Below the pieces are notes generated by a model, which did not search any database, was not told the DNA's origin, and saw only the letters and a program-made list of their open reading frames with translations. Shown here one piece after another: positions 3,143 through 63,810 of a stretch of 64,000 nt of DNA. Position 1 is the stretch's first letter. Each line of letters starts with the position of its first letter. Position numbers and translations under genes: made by a program. This stretch comes from Owenia fusiformis (taxonomy: Eukaryota; Annelida; Polychaeta; Sabellida; Oweniidae): NCBI GenBank assembly GCA_903813345.2, contig CAIIXF020000004.1, positions 4,483,525 through 4,547,524 on the forward strand, written 5' to 3'.

Positions 3143-5721
3143 TATATATATATATTTCTTTATTGCGACCAATTCTGATCATATACATATAGTTTAACAT
3201 AAAAGGTTATAAAAGGTTATGAAGAAAAAACATACAAAAATATAACAAAATATACAGTAGTTGTTTAGTGCAGGACGTTTAGAGAATTGAGAAATCTAGT
3301 TCTCAGTTGGTACATATGATACACTGTCCTGGCTATTATAATACAATCATCATATTCATTTGGGGCAAAAATATTTTCAATTACATTTAGGTCACTTCCG
3401 CCTAAGTAAGGTCGTATAGGATTTCTAGTTGTTTCCAGCACATCACAAAACTTAATAAAATGTAACAATGATTCATGCGAATTACACATTGGGCATACCC
3501 TATTCACATTTGGCTCGGTATGACGACCAACACCTTCACCAACCAGTAGTCTCACCATAAGTTTACATTTGAATATCATTTCAGGTTTGTATTTACATAG
3601 CTGGTACCAGACTATTGGAGTACGAGAAGTTACTACTTCTCTATAATGTTTGATTTTATTATATGTCATACATTGAAAACGCCATCTTTGCAGAGACTTT
3701 GTAAGAACAGAACTTTTCACTATCTTTTTCCAGTGCCACTTGGATGGAAATGTGTTATTAGAAATATAGCTATCCATTCTTCCTATAAGATCATATTGCA
3801 TTCCAAGTTGTATAATTTCCCTTATTGGTGATGAAACTGTTACAGCACATTTATCTACGAAGAAGCTATATAGTATAGCATACCATCTAAAGATACTTAA
3901 CTTCTTACAAATACCAACACTAGTATTAAAGATGTGCCAGAAATACATGAGCTTCCTGATTGCAATAGTTTCGCTTATACCTGTCCAACCAAGTTGAGCA
4001 ATCGCGGCACAATCAGTTGTGTTCTTTGGAAGAGATTGAATTGACTTGGCCGAATTGGCATGCACCTTTTCCAAAGTTTTAATATTTGATACATTATAAT
4101 TTAATACCTCGACACCATATAGCATGGTAGGAATTGAAACAGTCCAATATAAATTAGAAGCAGGTAAGGGATTTACGCTACACTTTTCGGGGGTGACACA
4201 GTCTACAGTGGCATAGAAATTGCGCCTTGCCCTAGATGTTACATTGTCTAAGTGATAGGCTATATCCCTCTGTGTAACTGGTAACCCAAGATGAACAAGG
4301 TCTTTGTTTATCGGAATCTTAGCGGATCCGAAATCAAAAGGTTGTACATCTTTAAAACTACTTCTAGTAAAGTGAACTGCTGCACATTTCCCTGGATGGA
4401 TCTCAAATCTCCATCTATTTGCATAATTATAAAGAATGTGCAGCATTTCTTGCATGCTATGTCTGAACATTGATACCAGTATGGTGTCATCTGCGTACGA
4501 TGGAGCAACACAGTTTATCCCCCGTACCTGACATCCATGTCCAGAGCTCTCTAATTCTAATAACAAAGGGTTCATGAATCTTACATACAATTCCATAGAA
4601 AGGACCCCACCTTGGTGGACCCCTTGTTGAACATAGAATAAATTACTTAATATACCATTGACCTTAACACAGCAACGATATCCTACATATGTCTCATAGA
4701 TAATTTTCCACAATTTTCCGTTGATACCCTGATTATATAACAAAAACATCAAACCATTTGTAAAAACCGTATCAAATGCCTTTTTCACGTCAATTGCCAA
4801 AACATAGGCATCTGAGCCATTTTCAAGTTGATGGGCAACTGTTTCCCTAAGGACAAGGGAGGTGTCAATACAAGATGACCCTGACTGTGCTGCATATTGA
4901 AGTTTTGACCTATTAAAATGATCACAACATTTGCTACGGTTTAAAATCAACCTATCTAATATCTTACTATATGTACTCATTAGAGTTATTCCCCGGTGGT
5001 TATCTTTATCAAGAACATCCTTATTACCACCTTTATACAGTGTTATCATAACTCCTACTTTTAAACTACTTGGTACATGTTCATACTTAAAAATAGCATT
5101 AAAAATCGCAGTTAAAAGATTAATAAGTGCCATGCCACCATATTTAAGATGCTCAGCTGAAACACCGTCCATACCACTAGCACGTCTGTTATTCAATGAC
5201 GTAATCGCTTTCAAGAGTTCTTCATTGTCAAAATTAACATCAAAAGAGCCATCATTGTTGTTTTGGTATTCTTTTATCATAATATTTACTCGAGAATCAA
5301 TATAATCTTTAAAGTCGGAATCAAAATTAACATTACATTTTGGGGTAAACAGTTTCTCAAAATAATTAGCCCATTCATTTCTAATATCACCAGGATCTTG
5401 TAGCACAGTCCCATCATCAGCTCTAATATGTATCGATTGTTTACAATCCCGTTTATGTCTGTTAGCTAAATACCAATAATGTCATCCACTCTCATCTTTG
5501 CATATTGCACAAGGAGCTATTAAAATTACAAGACCAACTTTATATTTTTTCAATTTGGTCTATGATTTTAATCCTTTGGATAATCTCTTCTTTAATTCTG
5601 AGTTGACAAGCTATGGAGATATTTTTGCACAGAAAGTAATGGTTTCTTGTCTTGAAGTGATTTTGTGCTACTTTTCTATGCTGCATCTATAGGCAATGGT
5701 AAGGATGTAAGAGTCGATGAC
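3143..5721 (-). mobile_element. 5'-truncated LINE retrotransposon
   Basis: A non-LTR retrotransposon lies on the minus strand. Its 3' end carries an AATAAA signal followed by an (AT)n tail at about 3143-3165, and its 5' end is lost at about 5721. Only the reverse transcriptase part of ORF2 is present; there is no endonuclease domain and no ORF1. The insertion separates the two arms of a palindrome. It appears to be a different lineage from the LINE at 58-64 kb, because the catalytic block surroundings differ (QGVHQGGVLS here, SGVPQGSIIGP there). Confidence 0.8.
3265..5481 (-). pseudogene. LINE ORF2 fragment: reverse transcriptase
   Basis: The frame is open from a TGA (5482-5484) to the stop at 3265, about 738 codons, with no evident proper start. 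Counting from the GTG at 5406, the RT blocks are NHRGITLMSTYSKIL at 136-150, IDVKKAFDTV with the first catalytic Asp near 206, QGVHQGGVLS near 261-270, and SYADD at 303-307 with the two catalytic Asp residues. A C-terminal CPMC-X6-H-X4-C motif, common to several LINE clades, follows. The residues before 5406 (HIRADDGTV) are still LINE-like, and similar sequence continues beyond the TGA with stops and frame changes. I read it as a dead, truncated copy whose RT core is still well preserved, which suggests a fairly recent insertion. The clade was not determined. Confidence 0.85.
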
Positions 5722-8495: not shown

Positions 8496-9743
8496 CTAGA
8501 CAGAAGTGCAATTACCATTTTCTGGTTTTGCTTGTAGATCATTCATCTTTATGACATTAGAACTGTCTTGATTTTCCTGGACAACCATGTACTTATTTTG
8601 TGTGTGGTCCTGTCGTGAGCTTACGCACCCGGAGCAAAATATTTGCTTAAATACGGACCTATACTTTGCGTTAATGTCCGGAGAGCGAATGCTGTAAACG
8701 ATAGGATCGAGGATGAAATTGATATATGGAAAATAGGTTATGAAATTGTTATAGACACTAATTATGTTTTGATCAAAATGGGCACTCCTGTAGACCTTTA
8801 CTGCAATGTAGGGCACTCCTGTTGAAACTAATATAACAAGTAGAATTAAAATCGTTTTAAAAGCCTGCTTGTCTTTAACTGGATTGCGTACAGAGTCTTC
8901 GTTTTTTCGTTTACTTGACCTATAAGATGCAGTTCTCACGAACAAGTCTCGCGAGAGGCTGAGATAAAGACATACGACGATCACCAATATTAATGCCTTG
9001 CCTCCTGCCCAAATGTATTTCCAGTTCGCACAAAATGTATAGGCGCCTTTTGTCATACATTCAATAGGCGTGACTGATGTCGGAATATGCAACTCAGTAC
9101 CGTATGTCGTGTTACCCATTGATGCGTTCTGCAACATTGTATCCATTTCGTATGAGCCTCCAACACTAGCAAGCTGTCTTGAGAGACGATAACACCTTTG
9201 TTTCACATGGTCACATACGATGGTGGGTAGGGTAAAACAGAGCGATATCAACCAGCAAAGCACTATATACAGCGCCACCTTTTTTGTACTTTCAAAGAGA
9301 GGTTTGAATGAATTTGGTTTAGTGATGCAGATGAACCGCATTATGGCGAAGACGAGCAGTGTAACGGCTGACGTGAAGAAAAACAAACTGAAACATGTCC
9401 CTCCAATTTTGAAGAGCATATTGCATGTTTCTATCGCAACGTTCCAATGTGTCCCAGCTCTGAATGCAACATCGCCGACATAAATCGCAAGAGTTCCGAG
9501 GATATCGCAAATTGCTAAATTTACGAACAACTTCGTGAATGGTGTCTGCTTTGGTAGAAAGATGACGATCAACATTGTAGCGAAGTTGGCAATTATAGCA
9601 GTCGCACATAGAATTGTCGATAATATTGTGAATGTGATAATAGACGTATCCGACTCTAATTTAAACATATCGAAATTGAAGGAGAAATTCCCATCACTAC
9701 CGTTTGTTACGTTTCCCATCAAGGCAAAATTAAATGAATCCAT
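8496..9743 (-). CDS. class A (rhodopsin-like) GPCR, orphan, MECA-like features
   Basis: This is a single-exon receptor of 415 residues predicted to signal at the plasma membrane through G proteins; the ligand is unknown. I chose the ATG at 9743 because its context (ACAATGG) is strong; an ATG lies two codons upstream at 9749, and the longer frame to 9770 would need a GTG. The N terminus has NVT, NGS and NFS glycosylation sites (11-21). The seven hydrophobic helices lie at about 36-63 (N53), 70-92 (NLAICD, sodium-site Asp80), 105-138 (Cys107), 157-177 (Trp164), 241-265, 295-317 (Pro311) and 330-353. The DRY motif is degenerate (MRF at 135-137), the TM6 CWxP is reduced to TGVP, and NPxxY is DPIVY (346-350). 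DPxxY occurs in melanocortin-type MECA receptors, but subfamily placement is inference. Helix 8 carries Cys370 and Cys373, possible palmitoylation sites. The C terminus TSV fits a class I PDZ ligand. Confidence 0.88.
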   Translation of the reverse strand: MDSFNFALMGNVTNGSDGNFSFNFDMFKLESDTSIITFTILSTILCATAIIANFATMLIVIFLPKQTPFTKLFVNLAICDILGTLAIYVGDVAFRAGTHWNVAIETCNMLFKIGGTCFSLFFFTSAVTLLVFAIMRFICITKPNSFKPLFESTKKVALYIVLCWLISLCFTLPTIVCDHVKQRCYRLSRQLASVGGSYEMDTMLQNASMGNTTYGTELHIPTSVTPIECMTKGAYTFCANWKYIWAGGKALILVIVVCLYLSLSRDLFVRTASYRSSKRKNEDSVRNPVKDKQAFKTILILLVILVSTGVPYIAVKVYRSAHFDQNIISVYNNFITYFPYINFILDPIVYSIRSPDINAKYRSVFKQIFCSGCVSSRQDHTQNKYMVVQENQDSSNVIKMNDLQAKPENGNCTSV

Positions 9744-11904
9744 TGTCATTAATATATTCACTTCTAGCACTTTACACTTACTTATAATAGTTTATTTACT
9801 AATAATTCCTCTTTTATCTGTCTGCAGTCCTTATAATATGTCGAGTTTATTTCGATGCCGGATATCCAACTATTAAATCAGGTGTAAATTTTAATTTCCG
9901 ATCAATAAAATCAAGGAACGCAGAACGGTTTGTGGTTATTCAAGTCTGCCAAAGAGTATTAACTCGACAAACGTTCGCTGTCAGCAACAATCTCAAGGGA
10001 TCACTAAATTTTGATAAGATTCCTTATACACGTTCTGGGCTTCCTTTAGGTAATCTGTTATTTCCATGAGTTTGAAAGAACGATGTGACTGTATAATCCT
10101 GTCCTTGAATACAAGTCATCACTGACAATTGAAGTCTCCTAGCTGTATGCCACCTTCCTTCAGTTCAGTCCAATACTGCTTTCCACATTTAACATTACGT
10201 AATCAATTCAAAAGCTTTTGTAATTAATATACTTTACTGAAAATACGTTTCGGGCCAATTCTTCTTGGCTTTCGTTTGAAGTTGTCGCCACCGGATGCTT
10301 CCATAGTCGACCTAGAGTTCTTTATGGAAAGTAGTATCGACAACCAGTCTTGTTCTGTGGATCTTATTTCAGCAAAGACCGAATATGAAAATAAAGAAAA
10401 CATCGATCAAGCAAAAATTTAGAAAATGGCATGTTTGTGTTTCACTAAGATAAATATCCTAGGTATCTGTGAGTATTGGAGACAGGGTTTTCAAAATTGC
10501 TCGCAGTATCACTGACATAGATACCAACGTTTTTTCAGCTCGCTCGAACATATTACCTCCCCTTTCGAGTGGTTAGATTATTTGAAATTGTAAGTTCTCC
10601 AAAATAATAAACGCAGATATTAAAATTTACAAATAAACACAAAGTGTCAGAACCTTCAGTTTTGTTTCAAAAAGGATGAACTTTAAACTAGATTGACAAG
10701 CAATAATAATAGCTAAAACAATACTTCGAGTATCTCAAAAATCGTACACAAATGAGACGGGAAAAGTTCTCTTTTCCTTCCTAAAAAGTTGACATGAAAA
10801 AGAAAAATCGGCAGAGCTAAATTTCATTGAAGCTTGTAAACTACTTCCCTAGAATTTTGACATTTCGGATGAAATCGATCCTCTATATATACTATTATAA
10901 GTATTTAAATCAGCTGTATGATTGATGCAGAACTGAATGCGATACATTTCAAAGATATGGGTAACTAAAAAACCCACAGAAACAAGCTTTTCAATAAAAT
11001 TGAACATATCTACAGAAATCCTTACATCAATCAGGTTTATATAAACTAACTGATTTTAACCGATTAGATAAAGTCACGTTTTGACACTATGATGTTTGTA
11101 TGATTCTGAAAAAATCGAAATGTCTGGTCTTCATAACATTTTTCACTGAGTTCAGTATGGTTAAAATGTCCAATGCATTGCAATGATGGTGAAATATAAG
11201 TACATGTATTTCTAGGGGCTAAAAGAAATATTTCATTTTTACATTCATGGTTGTGATTTTTAAGGTAACGAATTAACGTATCTGATTTTTAAAGACTGCT
11301 TTTATTGAAGAATGCAATTTTCGGCAGTCGGCTACCGGATTTATTTACTCTTTTCAGGGCATCTCATTTGAATATGAAAAGTACCTGCAACTATTCCATA
11401 AATGATTTGGTCATAAAATAGTATATTAATCCGGTGGTCGACAGCCGAAAGTTGCATTCGTGAATACAAGTTTAATTTTTCTTTAATGCGCCACGAGATA
11501 CGGATCAATCTATTTGATGTGAACATTGATTGATTATAAAAACAACTTAAGTATGATGCTAACTTTGAAGATTACCTGAAAGTTATTATGACTTTCACAC
11601 ATTTTAATGAATCTGGTTACTTGATATAGATTAATTCATGAGTTATGAGTACTTACATAATAGATGCAAGGCTTAATCATGCAATGTATCATTTTAAGTT
11701 GATTATTTTTGATTTTTACGTTTGAGGCACTCTCCTGATCCTCATCAACAAAAACGTAATTACTAATAATATTTAATTAATAATTAATTTATAATCAACT
11801 CAACATGAATGTAAACATCTTTGTTTTTTAATTAAGTATAAGTTTTAAGGATTAAATATAATGTTTGTGTTACTGGTATCTTTATGATCCCAAATTATTT
11901 TTCA
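9744..11904. other. upstream flank of the GPCR, no gene recognised
   Basis: The region is AT-rich without a convincing open frame or a repeat I could pair within the window. It should contain the receptor promoter and any 5' untranslated exon, but I could not place a promoter element with confidence. Confidence 0.45.
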
Positions 11905-21130: not shown

Positions 21131-21410
21131 ATTATTACCACCTTGCCGGGTCAGTTCTAGGGGTTTAAGTGCTCGTTAAGAAGGCATTTATTTTACTATA
21201 TCGACCTGACGTCATAGTGGCGGTCCATAATGGCAGTCAATAATGCAATTAATGACCAACAATTTTCCCCGGGAAACTTAGATATCGTTCAGTGCGTAAG
21301 ATTTTCTTGCTATTTCAGGCCTGGTCATTAACGGTGCTAATAATACTAATAACGTCATTTCTGCGGGCAATATAGTGCAATAATGGACCGAGGGCTATTA
21401 TTGAGCTGTT
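21131..21410 (-). repeat. empty-site relative of the 40.3-44.0 kb repeat
   Basis: In reverse complement this segment runs GTGGCGGTCAATA-type sequence, GACGTCA, GATATAGT, AATGCCTTCTTAACGAGCAC, then TTAAACCCCTAGAACTG and CCCGGCAAGGTGGTAATAAT. It matches 40745-40960 continued directly by 43958-43999, without the 3-kb insert between them. The end at 21358-21410 (AACGTCATTTCTGCGGGCAA) matches 40340-40400. Confidence 0.7.
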
Positions 21411-30860: not shown

Positions 30861-31199
30861 AGTGTGAGTACCGTAATCCAACAAGAAATTCAAAAATTCT
30901 CAACAATGCTTTGTACATATGGCGTTCATGACCAACAATGATACACTTACCCCCATGGTGTTATCAAAATGTACCTGTTCATATATAGGGGTTCGATTGA
31001 TCTACATAAAATTACAGGAAGTCATGTTACTTTTAAAGATATCAGCGTCCATTTATTGAAACTCGGGTTTGCCACCATTTTCTCATTTTCTGAAATGACG
31101 GGCACACGCGTAGTAAACATGCTCATTACATGGCATTATTTAGAACAAGATCACAGGTTTCTAACTGTTTTGGCGGATGCGGATATGGAATTTCACATC
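30861..31199 (-). repeat. solo, diverged copy of array unit A
   Basis: In reverse orientation this copy follows unit A of the 40.96-43.96 kb array: GTGAGTACCGTAATCCAAC, CATATGGCGTTC, AATGTACCTGTTCATATA, GGGGTTCGATTGATCTACAT, GATATCAGCGTCCATTTATT, TTGGCGGATG and GGATATGGAA. It is about 130 bp shorter through internal deletions. It shows that unit A is an independent repeat. The 108-codon frame over it has no support as a gene. Confidence 0.75.
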
Positions 31200-40339: not shown

Positions 40340-40962
40340 ACAATAACGTCATTTGGAAGGGCAATATAGTGGAATATTGGTCCGAGGGCCAAAGGCCCAA
40401 GGTCCAATATTTCACTGTATTACATACCCAGCGAAGCATTTGTATTGAAGTCAATGGAGCTGAAGGTCGGCTATATATTCCTGTATAGCCGCCAAACCTT
40501 TTAACATGACAATCTTATGACGTCATCGGGACGTCATGTTTCATTTCTTCCTAATTTCACTCGCACACAGACACGTGGCGTCATTGATATAACGTAGCCA
40601 TGATATAAAAGTATGTAATACAACAGTTATGTCCGTATCATTGAATATATGCCTTCGGTCTGTCATAATATAACCCTCGCAAGCTCGGGCTATATTGGTG
40701 ACAGACCTCAGGCATATATTCAATGATAGGGACATAACTGCTAAATATCGCCCGCAGTAATGACGTTACTACTATCATTACCACCGTTAATGACCAGGAC
40801 TGAAATAGCAAGAAAATCTTACGCACTGAACGATATCTAATTTCGCGGGGAAAATTGCCGGTCAAGAATTGCATTCTCGACCCGCAGTATTGACCGCCAC
40901 TATGACGTCACATTTTGCTTAGGTTGATATAGTCAAACGAATGCCTTCTAAACAAGCACTAA
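40340..40962. repeat. palindromic repeat hosting the composite array (left part)
   Basis: AATAACGTCATTT with GGGCAATATAGTG at 40342 returns in inverted form at about 40735-40755. The inner hairpin GGTCCGAGGGCCAAAGGCCC and the TATATGCC/GGCATATA pairs make this strongly self-complementary. The right part, 40745-40960, matches 21180-21358 inverted. The host repeat resumes at 43958 after the inserted array. Confidence 0.65.
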
Positions 40963-42220
40963 GGTATGAGGTTCCATATCCATCCGCCAAAAGGTATGAC
41001 CCCTATATAGTCCATTTAAAAACTCGTGGTATTGTTCTAAATAACGCCATAGTTGGCTTCTAGGGTACCTAGTATGCCACTATTTGGTATCAAAATAAAG
41101 AGGAGGAGTTCAACTTTCATTTGAATTACGAAAATAGCGATGTAGGTCAAAAATAGTTCCGACGTGAGGTTGTTTACTACGCGTTTGCCCGTCGTATCAG
41201 AATTGAGGAAGTGGTAGCAAACGCGAGTCACAATAAATGGACGCTGATATCTCAAAAAGTAACCTGACTCCCTATAATTTGATGTAGATCAATCGAACCC
41301 CTATATGAACAGGTACATTTTGATATATAACACTATGGGGGGTAAGCGTTTTATAGTTGGTCACGAACGCCATATGTGCAAAGTATTGTTATGAATTTTC
41401 GAATTTGGTGTTGGATTACGGTACTCATACCTTAATATGAGGCCTAAAATTGTCTGCTAGTTGGCCAGAGACCAATATTCTAGCAGAATTTGAGAACAGA
41501 ATCGATTTTTTCGTTCTGCGTGGGGCAAACAATGATTTGAAATCACTTTCAACCATTCTGTGAGTAGAAGAATGGTCATAAGAGGCCCGTGGAGGGTCAT
41601 GAATGAAAGAGAGCCCTCTGAAATTCGGTCAAAATTGCAGGTTATTTCTTCATTTTTTGCTAAAATTACATGATTTTCAGGGCCCATATCTCAGTGAAAT
41701 TGCTACAATGTAGCGATTTTTCATTTTTACAGGCTAGATACACGTGTCAGGTCGACAGAAACAGTAATCATGTGTGATTTTTAAATTGCTACATTGTAGC
41801 AATATTTATTTCAAAATACAGGTGTGAGGGAAACTGCAATTTAGTTAGATTTGGGCGAAAATGGCCAAATTTCAGTCAAAATCCTCGGGACACAGGGCCT
41901 TTGTCTTAGATTTAGTCAATGATGCAACTCTTAGTAGAAGGTGTGCCATATAGGGAATGAAAGCTGTTTGTCATACGTATCATTTTCTTCAATAAACTCA
42001 GAGATAGTCAGGTTAGATTTGTGACGTCACAGTGGCAAAGTTAGACTAGCATATTTAGACGTATTTGGGGTAGGGCAAATTAACCCTTTCTAGCCTAAAT
42101 GGATAAATTTTTCACATATTCAGCCAGTTTCGACGTTTTTATGCATTTTTGAACTAAAAATGATATTTTCTGCCAAAAAAAGTTGCAGAGACAAAAATCA
42201 GTGTGATGTCATAACACATT
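40961..42220 (+). repeat. 1260-bp tandem unit (A plus B), first copy
   Basis: The unit repeats exactly at 42221-43480 with only a handful of single-base differences, and its first 480 bases recur at 43481-43957. Part A is 40963-41431, bounded by GGTATGAG and CTCATACC. Part B is 41436-42218 and has no inverted termini. TTAA lies at both A/B joints. Frames on the minus strand within A (opening at TTG) and B (76 codons) show no known motif. Confidence 0.85.
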
Positions 42221-43957
42221 AAGGTATGAGGTTCCATATCCATCCGCCAAAAGGTATGACCCCTATATAGTCCATTTAAAAACTCGTGGTATTGTTCTAA
42301 ATAACGCCATAGTTGGCTTCTAGGGTACCTAGTATGCCACTATTTGGTATCAAAATAAAGAGGAGGAGTTCAACTTTCATTTGAATTACGAAAATAGCGA
42401 TGTAGGTCAAAAATAGTTCCGACGTGAGGTTGTTTACTACGCGTTTGCCCGTCGTATCAGAATTGAGGAAGTGGTAGCAAACGCGAGTCACAATAAATGG
42501 ACGCTGATATCTCAAAAAGTAACCTGACTACCTATAATTTGATGTAGATCAATCGAACCCCTATATGAACAGGTACATTTTGATATATAACACTATGGGG
42601 GGTAAGCGTTTTATAGTTGGTCACGAACGCCATATGTGCAAAGTATTGTTATGAATTTTCGAATTTGGTGTTGGATTACGGTACTCATACCTTAATATGA
42701 GGCCTAAAATTGTCTGCTAGTTGGCCAGAGACCAATATTCTAGCAGAATTTGAGAACAGAATCGATTTTTTCGTTCTGCGTGGGGCAAACAATGATTTGA
42801 AATCACTTTCAACCATTCTGTGAGTAGAAGAATGGTCATAAGAGGCCCGTGGAGGGTCATGAATGAAAGAGAGCCCTCTGAAATTCGGTCAAAATTGCAG
42901 GTTATTTCTTCATTTTTTGCTAAAATTACATGATTTTCAGGGCCCATATCTCAGTGAAATTGCTACAATGTAGCGATTTTTCATTTTTACAGGCTAGATA
43001 CACGTGTCAGGTCGACAGAAACAGTAATCATGTGTGATTTTTAAATTGCTACATTGTAGCAATATTTATTTCAAAATACAGGTGTGAGGGAAACTGCAAT
43101 TTAGTTAGATTTGGGCGAAAATGGCCAAATTTCAGTCAAAATCCTCGGGACACAGGGCCTTTGTCTTAGATTTAGTCAATGATGCAACTCTTAGTAGAAG
43201 GTATGCCATATAGGGAATGAAAGCTGTTTGTCAGACGTATCATTTTCTTCAATAAACTCAGAGATAGTCAGGTTAGATTTGTGACGTCACAGTGGCAAAG
43301 TTAGACTAGCATATTTAGACGTATTTGGGGTAGGGCAAATTAACCCTTTCTAGCCTAAATGGATAAATTTTTCACATATTCAGCCAGTTCCGACGTTTTT
43401 ATGCATTTTTGAACTAAAAATGATATTTTCTGCCAAAAAAAGTTGCAGAGACAAAAATCAGTGTGATGTCATAACACATTAAGGTATGAGGTTCCATATC
43501 CATCCGCCAAAAGGTATGACCCCTATATAGTCCATTTAAAAACTCGTGGTATTGTTCTAAATAACGCCATAGTTGGCTTCTAGGGTACCTAGTATGCCAC
43601 TATTTGGTATCAAAATAAAGAGGAGGAGTTCAACTTTCATTTGAATTACGAAAATAGCGATGTAGGTCAAAAATAGTTCCGACGTGAGGTTGTTTACTAC
43701 GCGTTTGCCCGTCGTATCAGAATTGAGGAAGTGGTAGCAAACGCGAGTCACAATAAATGGACGCTGATATCTCAAAAAGTAACCTGACTCCCTATAATTT
43801 GATGTAGATCAATCGAACCCCTATATGAACAGGTACATTTTGATATATAACACTATGGGGGGGGGGGGTAAGCGTTTTATAGTTGGTCACGAACGCCATA
43901 TGTGCAAAGTATTGTTATGAATTTTCGAATTTGGTGTTGGATTACGATACTCATACC
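40963..43957. mobile_element. composite A-B-A-B-A element with 1260-bp period
   Basis: Three A copies (469-480 bp) alternate with two B copies (783 bp). The whole 2,995-bp block starts with GGTATGAG and ends with CTCATACC. It is flanked by CTAA on both sides (40959-40962 and 43958-43961), while the related uninterrupted repeat at 21.1 kb reads CTTAAA there. The block therefore appears to have inserted as one piece with a 3-4 bp target duplication; TAA would suit the PIF/Harbinger superfamily, but this is inference. The third A has a G-run expansion near 43858. No transposase is encoded. Confidence 0.75.
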
Positions 43958-43998
43958 CTAAAACCCATAGAACTGGCCCGGCAAGGTGGTAATAATGA

Positions 43999-59896: not shown

Positions 59897-60100
59897 ATGT
59901 GTAATGTACCCATATTCCTTATTGTCATGCACACACTACATGTGTGCATACTTTTGGAAATTATCAATCATAGAGGTTGGGTTGGGGATGGGGATTACTT
60001 TTACATTTCTAAATACTGCTTACTTAGCTTTTTACCATTTGTTACTAGCATATATACCTTTCAGTTAACCAACAGTGCAGTCAAGTCAGGCATAGGTTAA
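59897..60100 (+). CDS. small hydrophobic upstream ORF overlapping ORF2 start
   Basis: The frame encodes 67 residues from the ATG at 59897 (ACCATGT) to TAA at 60098-60100. The last A of the stop is the first base of the ORF2 ATG, giving TAATG. The peptide is rich in Leu, Ile, Phe and Tyr, with one or two potential membrane segments, and resembles nothing I know. Stop-start overlaps of the UAAUG type mediate termination-reinitiation in the SART1 LINE. Here the upstream frame is not ORF1, so a coupling role is a hypothesis and the ORF may be fortuitous. Confidence 0.35.
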   Translation: MCNVPIFLIVMHTLHVCILLEIINHRGWVGDGDYFYISKYCLLSFLPFVTSIYTFQLTNSAVKSGIG

Positions 60101-63100
60101 TGGGTGCAGTCGACATTCAGTCGTGGCGAAGCAGAATTGGAATTTTTAACTCGAGAATCAAAATACCAGGTTTGAGAATCAAAAACAATGGTACTAAGAG
60201 GCAAATGTCAAGTCCAAGTTTTGTAACAGTCTTAATGCTTATATACCTTATTCTACTCACCTTAGATATAATTTCCTGCATTGATTTGACAAATAATTAC
60301 AATAAACTTTTTAATGAATTTACTAGGCTCATGGCTATTGTGGTCATAATCTACTTGTTAACAGTCATGTTTGTTACATTATTTATGTCAATGCAAATGC
60401 TTATGAAGCTTATAGGCAATGTAAAATATGCAAATATTTTTGACAATTTCACACTCACTGTTTTGATTTTTCAAACTTCAGTCTACATTTTTGACCAAAG
60501 TGATTTAATCTTGCAGGCCGGCGACATTGAAACTCATCCTGGTCCTCACTCTACATGTACCATGCAGCATGATCTCAAGTTCCTTTTCTCAAACATTAAC
60601 AGCATAAGCAGTGGGGAAGGTATCAGGTTTGAAAGTTTTAAACATAGATTAAGAAAACATGGGGTATCGGTAGCTGGACTCTGTGAAGTAGGCAATTTGA
60701 ATGACAAGATTATTTCTGAAAACTACTTACTTCCTGACTATCACTCTCCCCTTTATCATCAAGGGGGTAGAGGGCTCATGATATACATTAAATCTGACCT
60801 TACCTACATTCCCATGCCGGATTTGAATACTGATAACAGTCTTTGGGTTAATATCAAAATTAGAAATACTTCAATACTATTTGGTGTACATTATCGCTCT
60901 CCTAGTATGAATGTAAATGAGGAAAATGCTTATTTTGACCATCTAAGGGAAAATCTCTCCAAAGCATCCAAGATAAAATGTGACCACCTAATTATAAATG
61001 GTGATTTCAATTCCAAACATCAAAAATGGTGGCCTGAAGGTACTACTGACTCGAGAGGCAATAAACTTGACTCTATTTTATCAAACTTAAATCTTATCCA
61101 GTTAGTAAAAGAGCCTACCAGAATAACAAGAAACTCAAGAACCTGCATTGACCTTTCTATTACAAACAAGCCTTTTCTCGTAAGGGAATTGGTTGTTTCT
61201 GACCCTATTGGTAATACCGACCACTCTACTATTTTGACCACTCTTCCGTTAAAACTCAGTAAGAGACACAAATTAAAGAAAACCATTTGGAAATATGACC
61301 AGGCTGATATTGAGGGTATAAATTCCAACATTCGTAATTTTGACCTGACTGAACTATATAATCAGAGTAATAGAGACATTAATGTTACAACTGAAAGCTT
61401 TTCTTGTCATATTTTTGACATATTTTCAAAATACATTCCTCAAAAAACAACAATTTTAAATGCAAATGATCAACCTTGGATGAACTCAAAAATTAAACGC
61501 GAAATCAATAAGAAAGAACGACTTTATCGGAAAACCAAATCAAAAAATGACACAACTATTTTTGACAACTACACTGCTCAAGCTGAAAAGGTCAAATCCT
61601 TAATAAAAGAGGCAAAATTAAATTACCAGGAAAATATTGTAAAACAGATTAATGAATCAACCTGTAAAGGAAAACAATACTGGAACATAGTCAATTCTTT
61701 TCTATCCAGAACTTTTCATGCTTTACTCCCTAGTTTGAAGTGCAATTTTTCAGATCACATAGCTACAACTGAGGGTGAAAAAGCTGAGTGTTTCCTTAAC
61801 TTTTTTTCTTCAAAATATCATAATTTAAACCAAGTGGATAACGATGCACTTCCACATTTTCCAAATAGAACTGGAATATCAATTGACCATTTATCTACCA
61901 ATCCAGATGAAATTCTTCAAATAATCCAGTCCTTTGATTGCGATAAAGCCTGTGGTCTTGACAAAATTAATAACAGAATGACAAAAATAGCCCAGGAAGC
62001 ATTATCCTTCCAGTTATCAAAATTGTTTAACATGATTTTTGCATGTGGCCAATTTCCTAGTTGCTGGAAACTTGGAAACATTTCTCCAATTTATAAGAAG
62101 TCTGATAGATCTCAAGTTGAGAATTATAGACCGATTACTTTGCTAAGCACTTTTTCCAAAATTTTTGAAAAAGTTGTGCATAATCGCATTTTAACGCATC
62201 TACTTGAAAATAACCTTCTTTATCAATTTCAATCTGGATTTCTTCCAGGACACAACACTGAGCTACAACTTTTAGCAATAACTGATTATATCTTTAACGA
62301 AATGGAAAAAGGTAACTGTGTTAATTCTGTTTATTTAGACGTGGCGTCTGCTTTTGATACTGTACCGCATAACTTACTCATTCACAAGATGAAATCATAT
62401 GGAATTCAAGGTAAATTAGCCGACCTCTGCTCTTCTTACTTAGAAAATCGAAAAGTCTGTGTCACTGTAGATGATCACACATCAAACTTCTCTCCTGACC
62501 ACTTCATAAACTCCGGTGTGCCTCAGGGCTCCATAATCGGACCCCTGATGTTTCTGATATACATAAATGACCTCCCTGACACTCTGACCTCGAAAACTTT
62601 TATCTATGCAGATGATACCTCCTTATACTCTTTCTTTCACCCTTCTGGTAATCAAACTGGCCAACTCCAAAATGACCTAAATCTTTTAAGTGCATGGTCT
62701 AGAACCTGGCAATTGAAATTTAAAGCATCTAAAAGTGCTCATTTAATTTTTCGCTCAACCCGACTAAAAAATATTCAAATGTCTCCGCTTTACTTTGATG
62801 GTGAAATGATCCCCCAAAAGCAATCACACAAGCACCTGGGTTTCATCTTAGATGAGAATTTGACTTTTAATGACCATATAAACTATCTGTCTAATAAAGT
62901 TCAAAAACTGTTAAATCCTTTGAAGCTCATATCAAACAAAATACAATCGCACCATCTTGAAATAATGTATAATTCATATTTGGCGTCTCATTTTGACTAT
63001 TGTAGCTCCATTTACGGATCGTCATCCCTGGCGGCCTTGTCAAAGCTTGACAAAATCCACTACCAAGCTGCTGTTATATGTGCTGGGGTACTGCATGGCT

Positions 63101-63810
63101 CTAACACCTCAAAAACTTTAAAATGTTTACAGTGGAAATCGCTTACTGACAAAAGACACGAAAAAAATCTAAGACTGATGTTCAAAATTGTAAGAAAGGA
63201 AGTGCCTTATTATGTCCATAGTCTTTTTGACCAACATCGCAACCAAGCAACTAGAATTTTAAGACACTCTTTACCCTTTTCCTGCCCAAGAAATATTTCA
63301 ATGAGACTCTCCAAAGCACCAGTTTTAAAACTTATAAATGATTGGAACCAACTAAGCCAGACTTTTCGTGAAATTCAAACCATTTCTAGATTCAAAAGCT
63401 CTATTAAACAGATATTTATCCCTATTTCAAACTTCATACCAACTACAAAACTAAATTTAAGTAGAACCAACGAAAAACTGCTAAATAGGCTTCGAGTTGA
63501 TTTTGCCCTTAAAGACCATTTCTTTACTCATAATTTTACTGGAATAATTGACAACAAATGCCTCTGTGGCTCTACTGAAGACACAAAGCATTTCATTCTA
63601 ACCTGCCCTCGCCATACCCATGAACGTAATAAAATGATGACTGCACTTCGTGAACAAAATTTATTGTTTGATACTCAACTTATTTCTAGTAAGACAGAAC
63701 AGGTCAAATACTTAATTTATGAAAATGAACTCACTATTGATTCTCAGAAAATCCTGATAGATATAGTGATGCAATTTGTACAGGCCTGTTATAAGTTTCC
63801 ATCAAATTAA
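60100..63810 (+). CDS. LINE ORF2: endonuclease-reverse transcriptase
   Basis: This 1236-residue polyprotein nicks target DNA and copies LINE RNA by target-primed reverse transcription. The leader (1-139) has hydrophobic segments at about 41-62, 77-104 and 114-131. A 2A-like GDIETHPGP lies at 141-149. The endonuclease (158-380) shows SNINS (164-168), Glu196 in LCEVGNL, YRSP (265-268), GDFN (301-304), a TDSRG block (316-320) and NTDHS (372-376), the usual catalytic set of APE-type nucleases. The RT shows YRPITLLSTFSKIFEKV (676-692), YLDVASAFDTVPH (745-757), SGVPQGSIIGPLMF (805-818) and YADD (836-839). The C terminus has C-X1-C-X7-H-X4-C (1154-1169), a possible nucleic acid-binding knuckle. The ATG context is weak at -3 (T) but has G at +4. 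The frame is closed upstream by TAG at 60046. Confidence 0.92.
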   Translation: MGAVDIQSWRSRIGIFNSRIKIPGLRIKNNGTKRQMSSPSFVTVLMLIYLILLTLDIISCIDLTNNYNKLFNEFTRLMAIVVIIYLLTVMFVTLFMSMQMLMKLIGNVKYANIFDNFTLTVLIFQTSVYIFDQSDLILQAGDIETHPGPHSTCTMQHDLKFLFSNINSISSGEGIRFESFKHRLRKHGVSVAGLCEVGNLNDKIISENYLLPDYHSPLYHQGGRGLMIYIKSDLTYIPMPDLNTDNSLWVNIKIRNTSILFGVHYRSPSMNVNEENAYFDHLRENLSKASKIKCDHLIINGDFNSKHQKWWPEGTTDSRGNKLDSILSNLNLIQLVKEPTRITRNSRTCIDLSITNKPFLVRELVVSDPIGNTDHSTILTTLPLKLSKRHKLKKTIWKYDQADIEGINSNIRNFDLTELYNQSNRDINVTTESFSCHIFDIFSKYIPQKTTILNANDQPWMNSKIKREINKKERLYRKTKSKNDTTIFDNYTAQAEKVKSLIKEAKLNYQENIVKQINESTCKGKQYWNIVNSFLSRTFHALLPSLKCNFSDHIATTEGEKAECFLNFFSSKYHNLNQVDNDALPHFPNRTGISIDHLSTNPDEILQIIQSFDCDKACGLDKINNRMTKIAQEALSFQLSKLFNMIFACGQFPSCWKLGNISPIYKKSDRSQVENYRPITLLSTFSKIFEKVVHNRILTHLLENNLLYQFQSGFLPGHNTELQLLAITDYIFNEMEKGNCVNSVYLDVASAFDTVPHNLLIHKMKSYGIQGKLADLCSSYLENRKVCVTVDDHTSNFSPDHFINSGVPQGSIIGPLMFLIYINDLPDTLTSKTFIYADDTSLYSFFHPSGNQTGQLQNDLNLLSAWSRTWQLKFKASKSAHLIFRSTRLKNIQMSPLYFDGEMIPQKQSHKHLGFILDENLTFNDHINYLSNKVQKLLNPLKLISNKIQSHHLEIMYNSYLASHFDYCSSIYGSSSLAALSKLDKIHYQAAVICAGVLHGSNTSKTLKCLQWKSLTDKRHEKNLRLMFKIVRKEVPYYVHSLFDQHRNQATRILRHSLPFSCPRNISMRLSKAPVLKLINDWNQLSQTFREIQTISRFKSSIKQIFIPISNFIPTTKLNLSRTNEKLLNRLRVDFALKDHFFTHNFTGIIDNKCLCGSTEDTKHFILTCPRHTHERNKMMTALREQNLLFDTQLISSKTEQVKYLIYENELTIDSQKILIDIVMQFVQACYKFPSN
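60517..60546 (+). other. 2A-like peptide coding site within ORF2
   Basis: It encodes AGDIETHPGP, directly before the endonuclease domain. Consensus 2A peptides end in D-V/I-E-x-N-P-G-P and make the ribosome skip the Gly-Pro bond. Here the Asn is His, so activity is uncertain. 2A-like sequences at this place in ORF2 are known from other APE-type LINEs. Confidence 0.6.

Follow-up and report, generated by a model that had tools for sequence, protein, structure and literature searches.

A tandem array of two alternating units, A and B, occupies positions 40963-43957 of the 64,000-nucleotide stretch of Owenia fusiformis DNA analysed here (assembly GCA_903813345.2, contig CAIIXF020000004.1, positions 4,483,525 to 4,547,524 of the forward strand; hereafter the window). 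Alternating A/B arrays of this kind, scattered through the genome as single insertions, are satellite DNA that travels as one transposon. We propose, with a probability of about 0.68, that each array is a non-autonomous composite DNA transposon that moves as A(BA)n through its outer A ends.

Direct reading and a repeat search confirmed the layout given in a preliminary description of the window, A-B-A-B-A with A termini outermost and CTAA on both outer sides, and placed TTAA at 4 of 4 internal junctions (Table 1). The period of 1260 bp is the sum of A (469), TTAA (4), B (783) and a second TTAA (4). That description had called two of the periods exact. The period holds and the exactness does not: there are 4 substitutions between units 1 and 2 over 1260 positions, and the third A carries six additional G in a G-run and one substitution. 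The A termini are imperfect inverted repeats, in which 14 of the 20 outermost bases match between the GGTATGAG and CTCATACC ends. Because stop-free stretches reach at most 83 codons in A and 77 codons in B, neither unit can encode a long protein.

Both units were then searched for in the assembly (498 Mb, 525 contigs). The similarity search with A gave 1741 first-look candidates, of which the best 40 were scored, and that with B gave 303, with the best 40 scored and 44 matches listed; both totals are rough counts. Exact junction patterns numbered 218 for B-TTAA-(A or B) and 172 for A-TTAA-(A or B), against 0 for the reversed controls, and exact A starts numbered 252. Since A, B and their junctions recur genome-wide and the reversed controls gave none, a chance origin is excluded. 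Among the first 100 B-side junctions listed of the 218, 32 are B-B; the first 100 A-side junctions listed of the 172 are all A-B, and none is A-A. We read 41 array loci, with the forms ABA, ABABA, ABBA, ABBABBA and A(BA)5, a 25-kb array at C5:17.32 Mb made of 13 A and 24 B, and a 19-kb array that was sized from its junctions and read in sequence at its two ends only. A few array loci lack an end A. The main sample was drawn from the best A (40) and B (44) matches and is biased toward young copies; eight extra ABA loci were taken from the first 100 places listed of the 218, 172 and 252 pattern matches, and all of them lie on contigs C1-C4. The genome check proposed in the preliminary description thus found all the forms it named: A alone, A-B-A and longer arrays are present, B stands between A copies elsewhere, and array lengths vary. 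The 25-kb and 19-kb arrays have the long, homogenised tandem form of satellite DNA. Odd junction spacings at two places at C2:18.26 Mb (429 bp) and at C3:18.43 Mb (900 and 1057 bp) are a sign of arrays in which B or A is shortened.

Whole arrays carry the marks of one insertion event. Identical 4-bp outer flanks were found at 31 of 39 arrays, namely 22 of 30 in the main set, the 2 long arrays and 7 of 7 extra loci. This flank set takes in 30 of the 32 main-set rows (a lone A and C11_20.84p, an array cut by the end of its stretch, were omitted), the two long arrays and seven of the eight extra loci, with C2_34.0 included and C1_1.3 omitted for its missing left A end. The matched flank is TTAA in 14 of the 31 and another sequence in the other 17 (CTAA, ATAA, TTAT, ATAT, ACAA or TAAA); the 25-kb array lies between TTAT and TTAT, the 19-kb array between TAAA and TAAA. 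At the joints between successive units, exact TTAA was read in 156 of 160 cases (67 A-B, 67 B-A and 22 B-B). Of the other four, two are B-A joints lengthened by 7 bases, both in one locus, one reads TTAATTAA and one is a deletion; an insertion inside an A copy, which is not a unit joint, was left out of these exceptions. Because the outer flank varies by site while the inner joints hardly vary, the array itself is the inserted thing, and whole arrays act as single insertions delimited by their outermost A ends. The earlier proposal of insertion as one unit is supported by these arrays, though the window's second B-A may either have come in with the insertion or have been added in place later. 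Its CTAA target duplication stands as a duplication, although not as a specificity for CTAA, the target being a relaxed TTAA.

Sites without the insert were sought by comparing the joined flanks of 31 loci with the window and the fetched loci. A match to an insert-free site was obtained at 6 of the 31. It is gapless for the window array (Table 1), for C2_24.8 and for a lone A at C6; at C10_6.0 it contains small gaps distant from the joint; at C11_12.5 it reaches 99% over 101 bp with one base missing at the joint; and at C2_12.3 six bases are missing at the joint. The arrays show the two element copies around a passenger and the one target duplication around the whole that define a composite transposon. 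One defining property is absent: the flanking A encodes no transposase, its longest stop-free stretch being 83 codons. The arrays L024 (C9:13.02 Mb) and L039 (C11:15.35 Mb), on different haplotypes, occupy the same TTAA of the same host repeat in opposite orientation, with flanks 98-99% identical over 126 and 199 bp; the opposite orientation at one TTAA indicates that the site was hit twice or that the insert was inverted. A 61-bp tandem satellite hosts the inserted array at L036 (C2:12.32 Mb), where 6 bp are missing from the left joint.

The units of one array resemble each other far more than those of other arrays. The A copies were compared in 35 of the 41 array loci, those with at least two near-complete A copies, by substitutions only, gaps being ignored; the comparison excluded the three BA loci, C2_34.0, C1_1.3 and the 19-kb array, of which two pieces were read. 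First and last A within an array differ by a mean of 0.16% and a median of 0 substitutions, and by none in 21 of the 35 arrays. Pairs taken from different arrays are further apart, with means of 1.84% (first-first), 1.88% (last-last) and 1.86% (first-last). Since these values are equal whatever the position of the A, there are no left and right A lineages, contrary to a composite handed on unchanged by cut-and-paste, and a descent from two independent lineages, one left and one right, is ruled out. Variant tables show in addition that locus-private mutations are common to the units of that locus. The units of most arrays share a recent origin from one copied unit. The idea in the preliminary description that two A elements mobilised B is thus retained as to the composite and given up as to two independently evolving A: most loci carry copies of a single A, as first and last A are near-identical inside an array and show no relation by position from one array to another.

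In A and in the nearest B, C2_15.3 (n=5, flanked by TTAA) and C6_11.4 (n=1, flanked by TTAT) are free of substitutions relative to each other. C10_14.1 and C3_33.9 both read A-B1-B2-A-B1-B2-A, where B1 and B2 differ by one base and the pair is repeated; the two arrays are on different haplotypes and their A copies are 7 substitutions apart. The most diverged A pairs within an array are those of C1_35.4 (1.5%) and C2_35.1 (0.85%), and the data suggest that A-copy identity within an array decays with age. Separately, a 9-bp deletion (TATGACCCC) was seen in the first A of C4_11.62, C4_11.81 and C11_20.84, on different haplotypes; it occurs in 3 of 40 first A copies and in 0 of 64 other A copies, and removes the inner end-like motif AAGGTATGA.

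A also occurs alone. The best 40 A matches fall into 23 loci, with B beside A in 21, a lone A in 1 and another 1 without assignment. Candidates for a lone A numbered 21, of which 19 came from the exact A starts, 1 from the A similarity search and 1 from the reading of array loci. Among the first 20 of these, 4 have a B end alongside and 6 are broken or shortened, or 7 with L071, a lone A that is without its last 8 bases yet has ATAA on both sides. The remaining 9 are complete or near-complete, and 5 of them have matched flanks. In all, complete lone A copies with matched TTAA or ATAA flanks make up 6 of the 21 candidates: A alone has transposed too.

In the mechanism that we propose, A is a non-coding element resembling a miniature inverted-repeat transposable element (MITE) that targets TTAA-like 4-bp sites, with a target choice closest to that of the piggyBac superfamily, and B is a passenger with TTAA at both ends. 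The first A-B-A may have formed when two A copies inserted in the same orientation at the TTAA on either side of B. As the matched outer flanks suggest, a transposase supplied in trans would act on the two outermost A termini, the left one of the first A and the right one of the last, and A(BA)n would insert as one unit, duplicating 4 bp of target. The likeliest source of the identical units, with about an even chance, would be an extrachromosomal circle of A and B, or a concatemer made by copying such a circle; the main alternative source, to which we give somewhat less than even odds, would be unequal exchange plus gene conversion in place. An internal A would finally be lost precisely, B-TTAA-A-TTAA-B becoming B-TTAA-B. 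The product predicted for this last step is seen in the fetched arrays, where the B-B joint is a single TTAA in 22 of 22 cases, which would be expected if an internal A leaves precisely, as piggyBac-type elements do. Orientation of the units is uniform within each of the 43 fetched array stretches (one of them a lone A), and additional TTAA lie inside the units, two in B and one in A.

Several observations weigh against this reading, the first of them in the flanks. At 8 of the 39 arrays the flanks are unequal, with TTAA on one side in 6 and lost bases in 2 (C2_12.3, on its left side, and C11_12.5). One of these arrays speaks instead for the precise loss of A: C2_24.8 ends in B followed by TTAA, its left flank is TTAG and most of the listed sister host repeats have TTAG, so that the last A has apparently gone and the inner TTAA has been kept. 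C11_12.5 lacks its first A; its empty site has AGAA, and the joint is one base short, as if AGAA and TTAA ends were unable to join cleanly. C3_27.6, C11_20.82, C10_6.0, C3_19.1 and C342 have TTAA on one side and a near variant or TTGT on the other; at C10_6.0 it is the TTAA side that was altered, because the sister repeats have ATAA. The non-TTAA targets (17 of 31) are far commoner than in the piggyBac element Pokey, and ATAT, ACAA and TAAA are not among the Pokey target sites tabulated in PMC3849761. This high share may perhaps reflect an easier loss of copies at TTAA. Other difficulties lie within the arrays. At C10_6.0 the B copies differ by about 0.4-0.5%, and at C11_20.84p two B copies differ by 1.5%, with no substitutions between the A copies at either locus; in view of these B differences, some arrays are not clean copies of a single unit. 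The last 3 kb of the 25-kb array, a region picked after looking, contain 5 of its 7 private changes, and this clustering suggests that the rest grew later in place instead of arriving as a finished array.

The remaining objections concern the family of A. One feature of piggyBac elements is present: their TTAA target, with TTAT, ATAA and CTAA as rare variants, was found at the matched array flanks, and complete lone A copies have TTAA or ATAA. A search for the piggyBac transposase family gave 113 matches in the genome, some of them pieces of one gene. Eight of these loci were read: 5 have TTAA-flanked inverted ends unlike those of A, and 3 have none detectable. A starts with GG, whereas the detectable piggyBac ends in the genome start with CTC or CCTTT. 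A transposase or autonomous partner bearing the ends of A was not found, piggyBac being the only TTAA-type superfamily searched. The 12-letter A end joined to a different interior gave 22 matches against 19 for the control, a comparison of low power in which much sequence is excluded by design, and one of the 22 is a shortened A. Since the transposase loci that were read lack the ends of A, we say that A behaves as a piggyBac MITE would, without classing it among them. A literature search for GGTATGAGG with "transposon" returned nothing relevant by title. At L066/L073 (C3:14.85 Mb), 3.15 kb between two TTAA contain the first 29 bp of A and about its last 380 bp (83%); the interior has no stop-free stretch above 84 codons, and the locus seems to be either an old A that took up a long non-coding insert or a longer relative that is now dead.

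Two explanations for the near-identity of the units overlap with the composite proposed here, and they differ in when that identity arises. According to one, plain cut-and-paste delivers an A-B-A, which unequal exchange and gene conversion lengthen and homogenise in place with neither circle nor replicative step. We regard this as a serious possibility, if short of an even one. Direct repeats this close recombine readily; arrays on the same haplotype vary in n; and the 25-kb array has uneven runs of B (1, 3, 2, 2, 2, 1, 2, 4, 3, 2, 1 and 1) but near-identical units, with its private changes clustered at one end. Exchange between A copies should, however, often yield a lone A, which was found at only 1 of the 23 loci behind the best 40 A matches, and the A divergence at C1_35.4 and C2_35.1 looks as if identity had been present from birth and then decayed. 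The other explanation is that an A-B or A-B-B circle is copied and inserts through its A ends as A-B-A, A-B-A-B-A or A-B-B-A. It would account for A copies without differences at any position in most young arrays, for the absence of left and right lineages, for the repeated B1-B2 dimers at C10_14.1 and C3_33.9 on two haplotypes, and for how seldom A stands alone in the best A matches. We regard it as a tentative option: an assembly cannot reveal circles, the known mode of eukaryotic TTAA elements is cut-and-paste, the uneven B runs of the 25-kb array are not expected from a small circle by itself, and B1 and B2 differ at C10_6.0 and C11_20.84p. Circle-type copying and in-place exchange with conversion may both be at work. 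In its fullest form the copying idea is of a composite that transposes by copying, in which a replicated A-B or A-B-B circle would insert through its A ends, the insertion would be born as an array of identical units, and the same transposase would then trim internal A copies precisely, leaving a B satellite capped by A. We consider this whole sequence of events rather unlikely. It would resemble long terminal repeat (LTR) retrotransposons, whose two LTRs are identical at birth as these units would be, and would differ from them in using no RNA.

The other readings that we weighed are improbable. If A were an LTR, A-B-A would be a miniature LTR retrotransposon resembling terminal-repeat retrotransposons in miniature (TRIM), with tandem forms produced by LTR recombination. 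The layout is the same: each locus has terminal direct repeats that match each other, the forms include solo A, A-B-A and A-B-A-B-A, and the target duplication is short. This reading was dropped on three grounds: the ends are GG...CC instead of TG...CA; neither a tRNA-binding site after the left A nor a purine tract before the right A was seen by eye in the window array; and A-B-B-A with a single TTAA at B-B is not derivable from LTR biology. A TTAA-like target is also atypical for LTR elements. We give equally little weight to B as an older satellite into which A inserted repeatedly at B-B junctions. An A landing in a single-TTAA B-B joint does give exactly B-TTAA-A-TTAA-B, but in the fetched array stretches A always has the same orientation relative to B and always lies at junctions, despite the two other TTAA in B. 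Independent insertions would vary in orientation and site and are thus improbable, and most arrays, moreover, end in A with a duplicated target; the uniform orientation and the unused TTAA sites led us to drop this candidate. A false duplication in the assembly is the least probable of all. With units this alike, a long array, the 25-kb one for example, could have been given a wrong copy number, but the window units have differences of their own (the four substitutions between units 1 and 2 and the 6-bp longer G-run of the third A), and misassembly cannot yield matched 4-bp flanks that differ from locus to locus at 31 loci.

The features of the window array are collected in Table 1. About 10 kb from it, at 30862-31167 on the minus strand, lies an older, broken A copy in two pieces with 82-85% identity. 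A dispersed repeat adjoins or hosts the array at 40745-40960 and has a second copy at 21168-21373 (83%), and a 42-bp inverted repeat, 93% complementary, lies directly upstream at 40624-40740. Elsewhere in the window, reverse transcriptase frames (RVT_1) were found at 60049-63807 on the plus strand and at 3268-5481 on the minus strand, the former with an endonuclease domain that marks it as of non-LTR type, together with a rhodopsin-type receptor frame at 8499-9791 on the minus strand.

Table 1. Features of the A/B array and of its empty site, in window coordinates.
Feature	Position	Strand	Basis
Left CTAA of the 4-bp target duplication around the array	40959..40962		direct reading
A copy 1, 469 bp, non-coding, terminal inverted repeats GGTATGAG/CTCATACC	40963..41431	+	direct reading, repeat search
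TTAA, internal A-B junction	41432..41435		direct reading
B copy 1, 783-bp passenger unit, non-coding	41436..42218	+	direct reading
TTAA, internal B-A junction	42219..42222		direct reading
A copy 2, 1 substitution relative to copy 1	42223..42691	+	copy comparison
TTAA, internal A-B junction	42692..42695		direct reading
B copy 2, 3 substitutions relative to copy 1	42696..43478	+	copy comparison
TTAA, internal B-A junction	43479..43482		direct reading
A copy 3, 475 bp, G-run with 6 more G, one substitution	43483..43957	+	direct reading, copy comparison
CTAA, right copy of the array-level target duplication	43958..43961		direct reading
Paralogous host-repeat copy uninterrupted by the array (empty site), gapless match of 88% over 77 bp	21131..21207	-	joined-flank match

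How a satellite spreads to many chromosome sites, with units alike within a site and not between sites, is a long-standing question. Arrays of 1 to 24 passengers that carry transposon ends and target duplications turn the spread into a recognisable insertion event with a readable internal history, and the family allows arrays born long and identical to be tested against growth after landing. Composite DNA transposons of eukaryotes, here with a non-coding passenger, also gain an example that is natural and present in many copies.

Alternating A/B arrays with one target duplication were not found in a literature search by title and abstract start, which is weak evidence, subscription journals lying largely outside its scope. 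The nearest bacterial parallel is offered by composite transposons and IS26 units, in which an element present as direct copies on both sides carries a passenger along, and in which A-B-A-B-A with one A between passengers has its counterpart. The likeness to the translocatable units, tandem arrays and cointegrates of IS26 lies in the outcome; the Owenia arrays differ in their eukaryotic genome, non-coding A and TTAA-like target. Among eukaryotic systems, the piggyBac elements Pokey and mPok of Daphnia are similar in their 4-bp TTAA target, with TTAT, ATAA and CTAA also used: the reported targets are TTAA in 88.13%, TTAT in 5.93%, ATAA in 5.09% and CTAA in 0.85%, and about 23% of mPok copies sit in a TTAA flanking another copy, as tandem repeats (PMC3849761). 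As described there, these are insertions into a neighbour's flanking TTAA, whereas in the Owenia arrays two different units follow each other in an order and orientation that do not change, a single target duplication encloses the whole array, and within an array the A are copies of one another, as are the B. Alternative (reversed-ends) transposition of maize Ac/Ds, where the ends of neighbouring elements cooperate, generates tandem direct duplications with target duplications (PMC3744419). It involves a hAT element and 8-bp duplications, and the cases described there are one maize allele and three small genomic ones, with no dispersed array family among them. Satellites borne by MITEs or other transposons are reported as Xstir and miDNA4 in Xenopus, Tetris in Drosophila and HindIII/BIV160 in bivalves, Xstir including a composite of a MITE and a tandem array (PMC12628747, PMC9659126). 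In these accounts, too, a non-autonomous transposon spreads tandem repeats; the repeat, however, comes from the interior of the element (Xstir, miDNA4) or from its inverted repeat (Tetris), whereas in Owenia the whole transposon is one of the two repeated units and caps the array.

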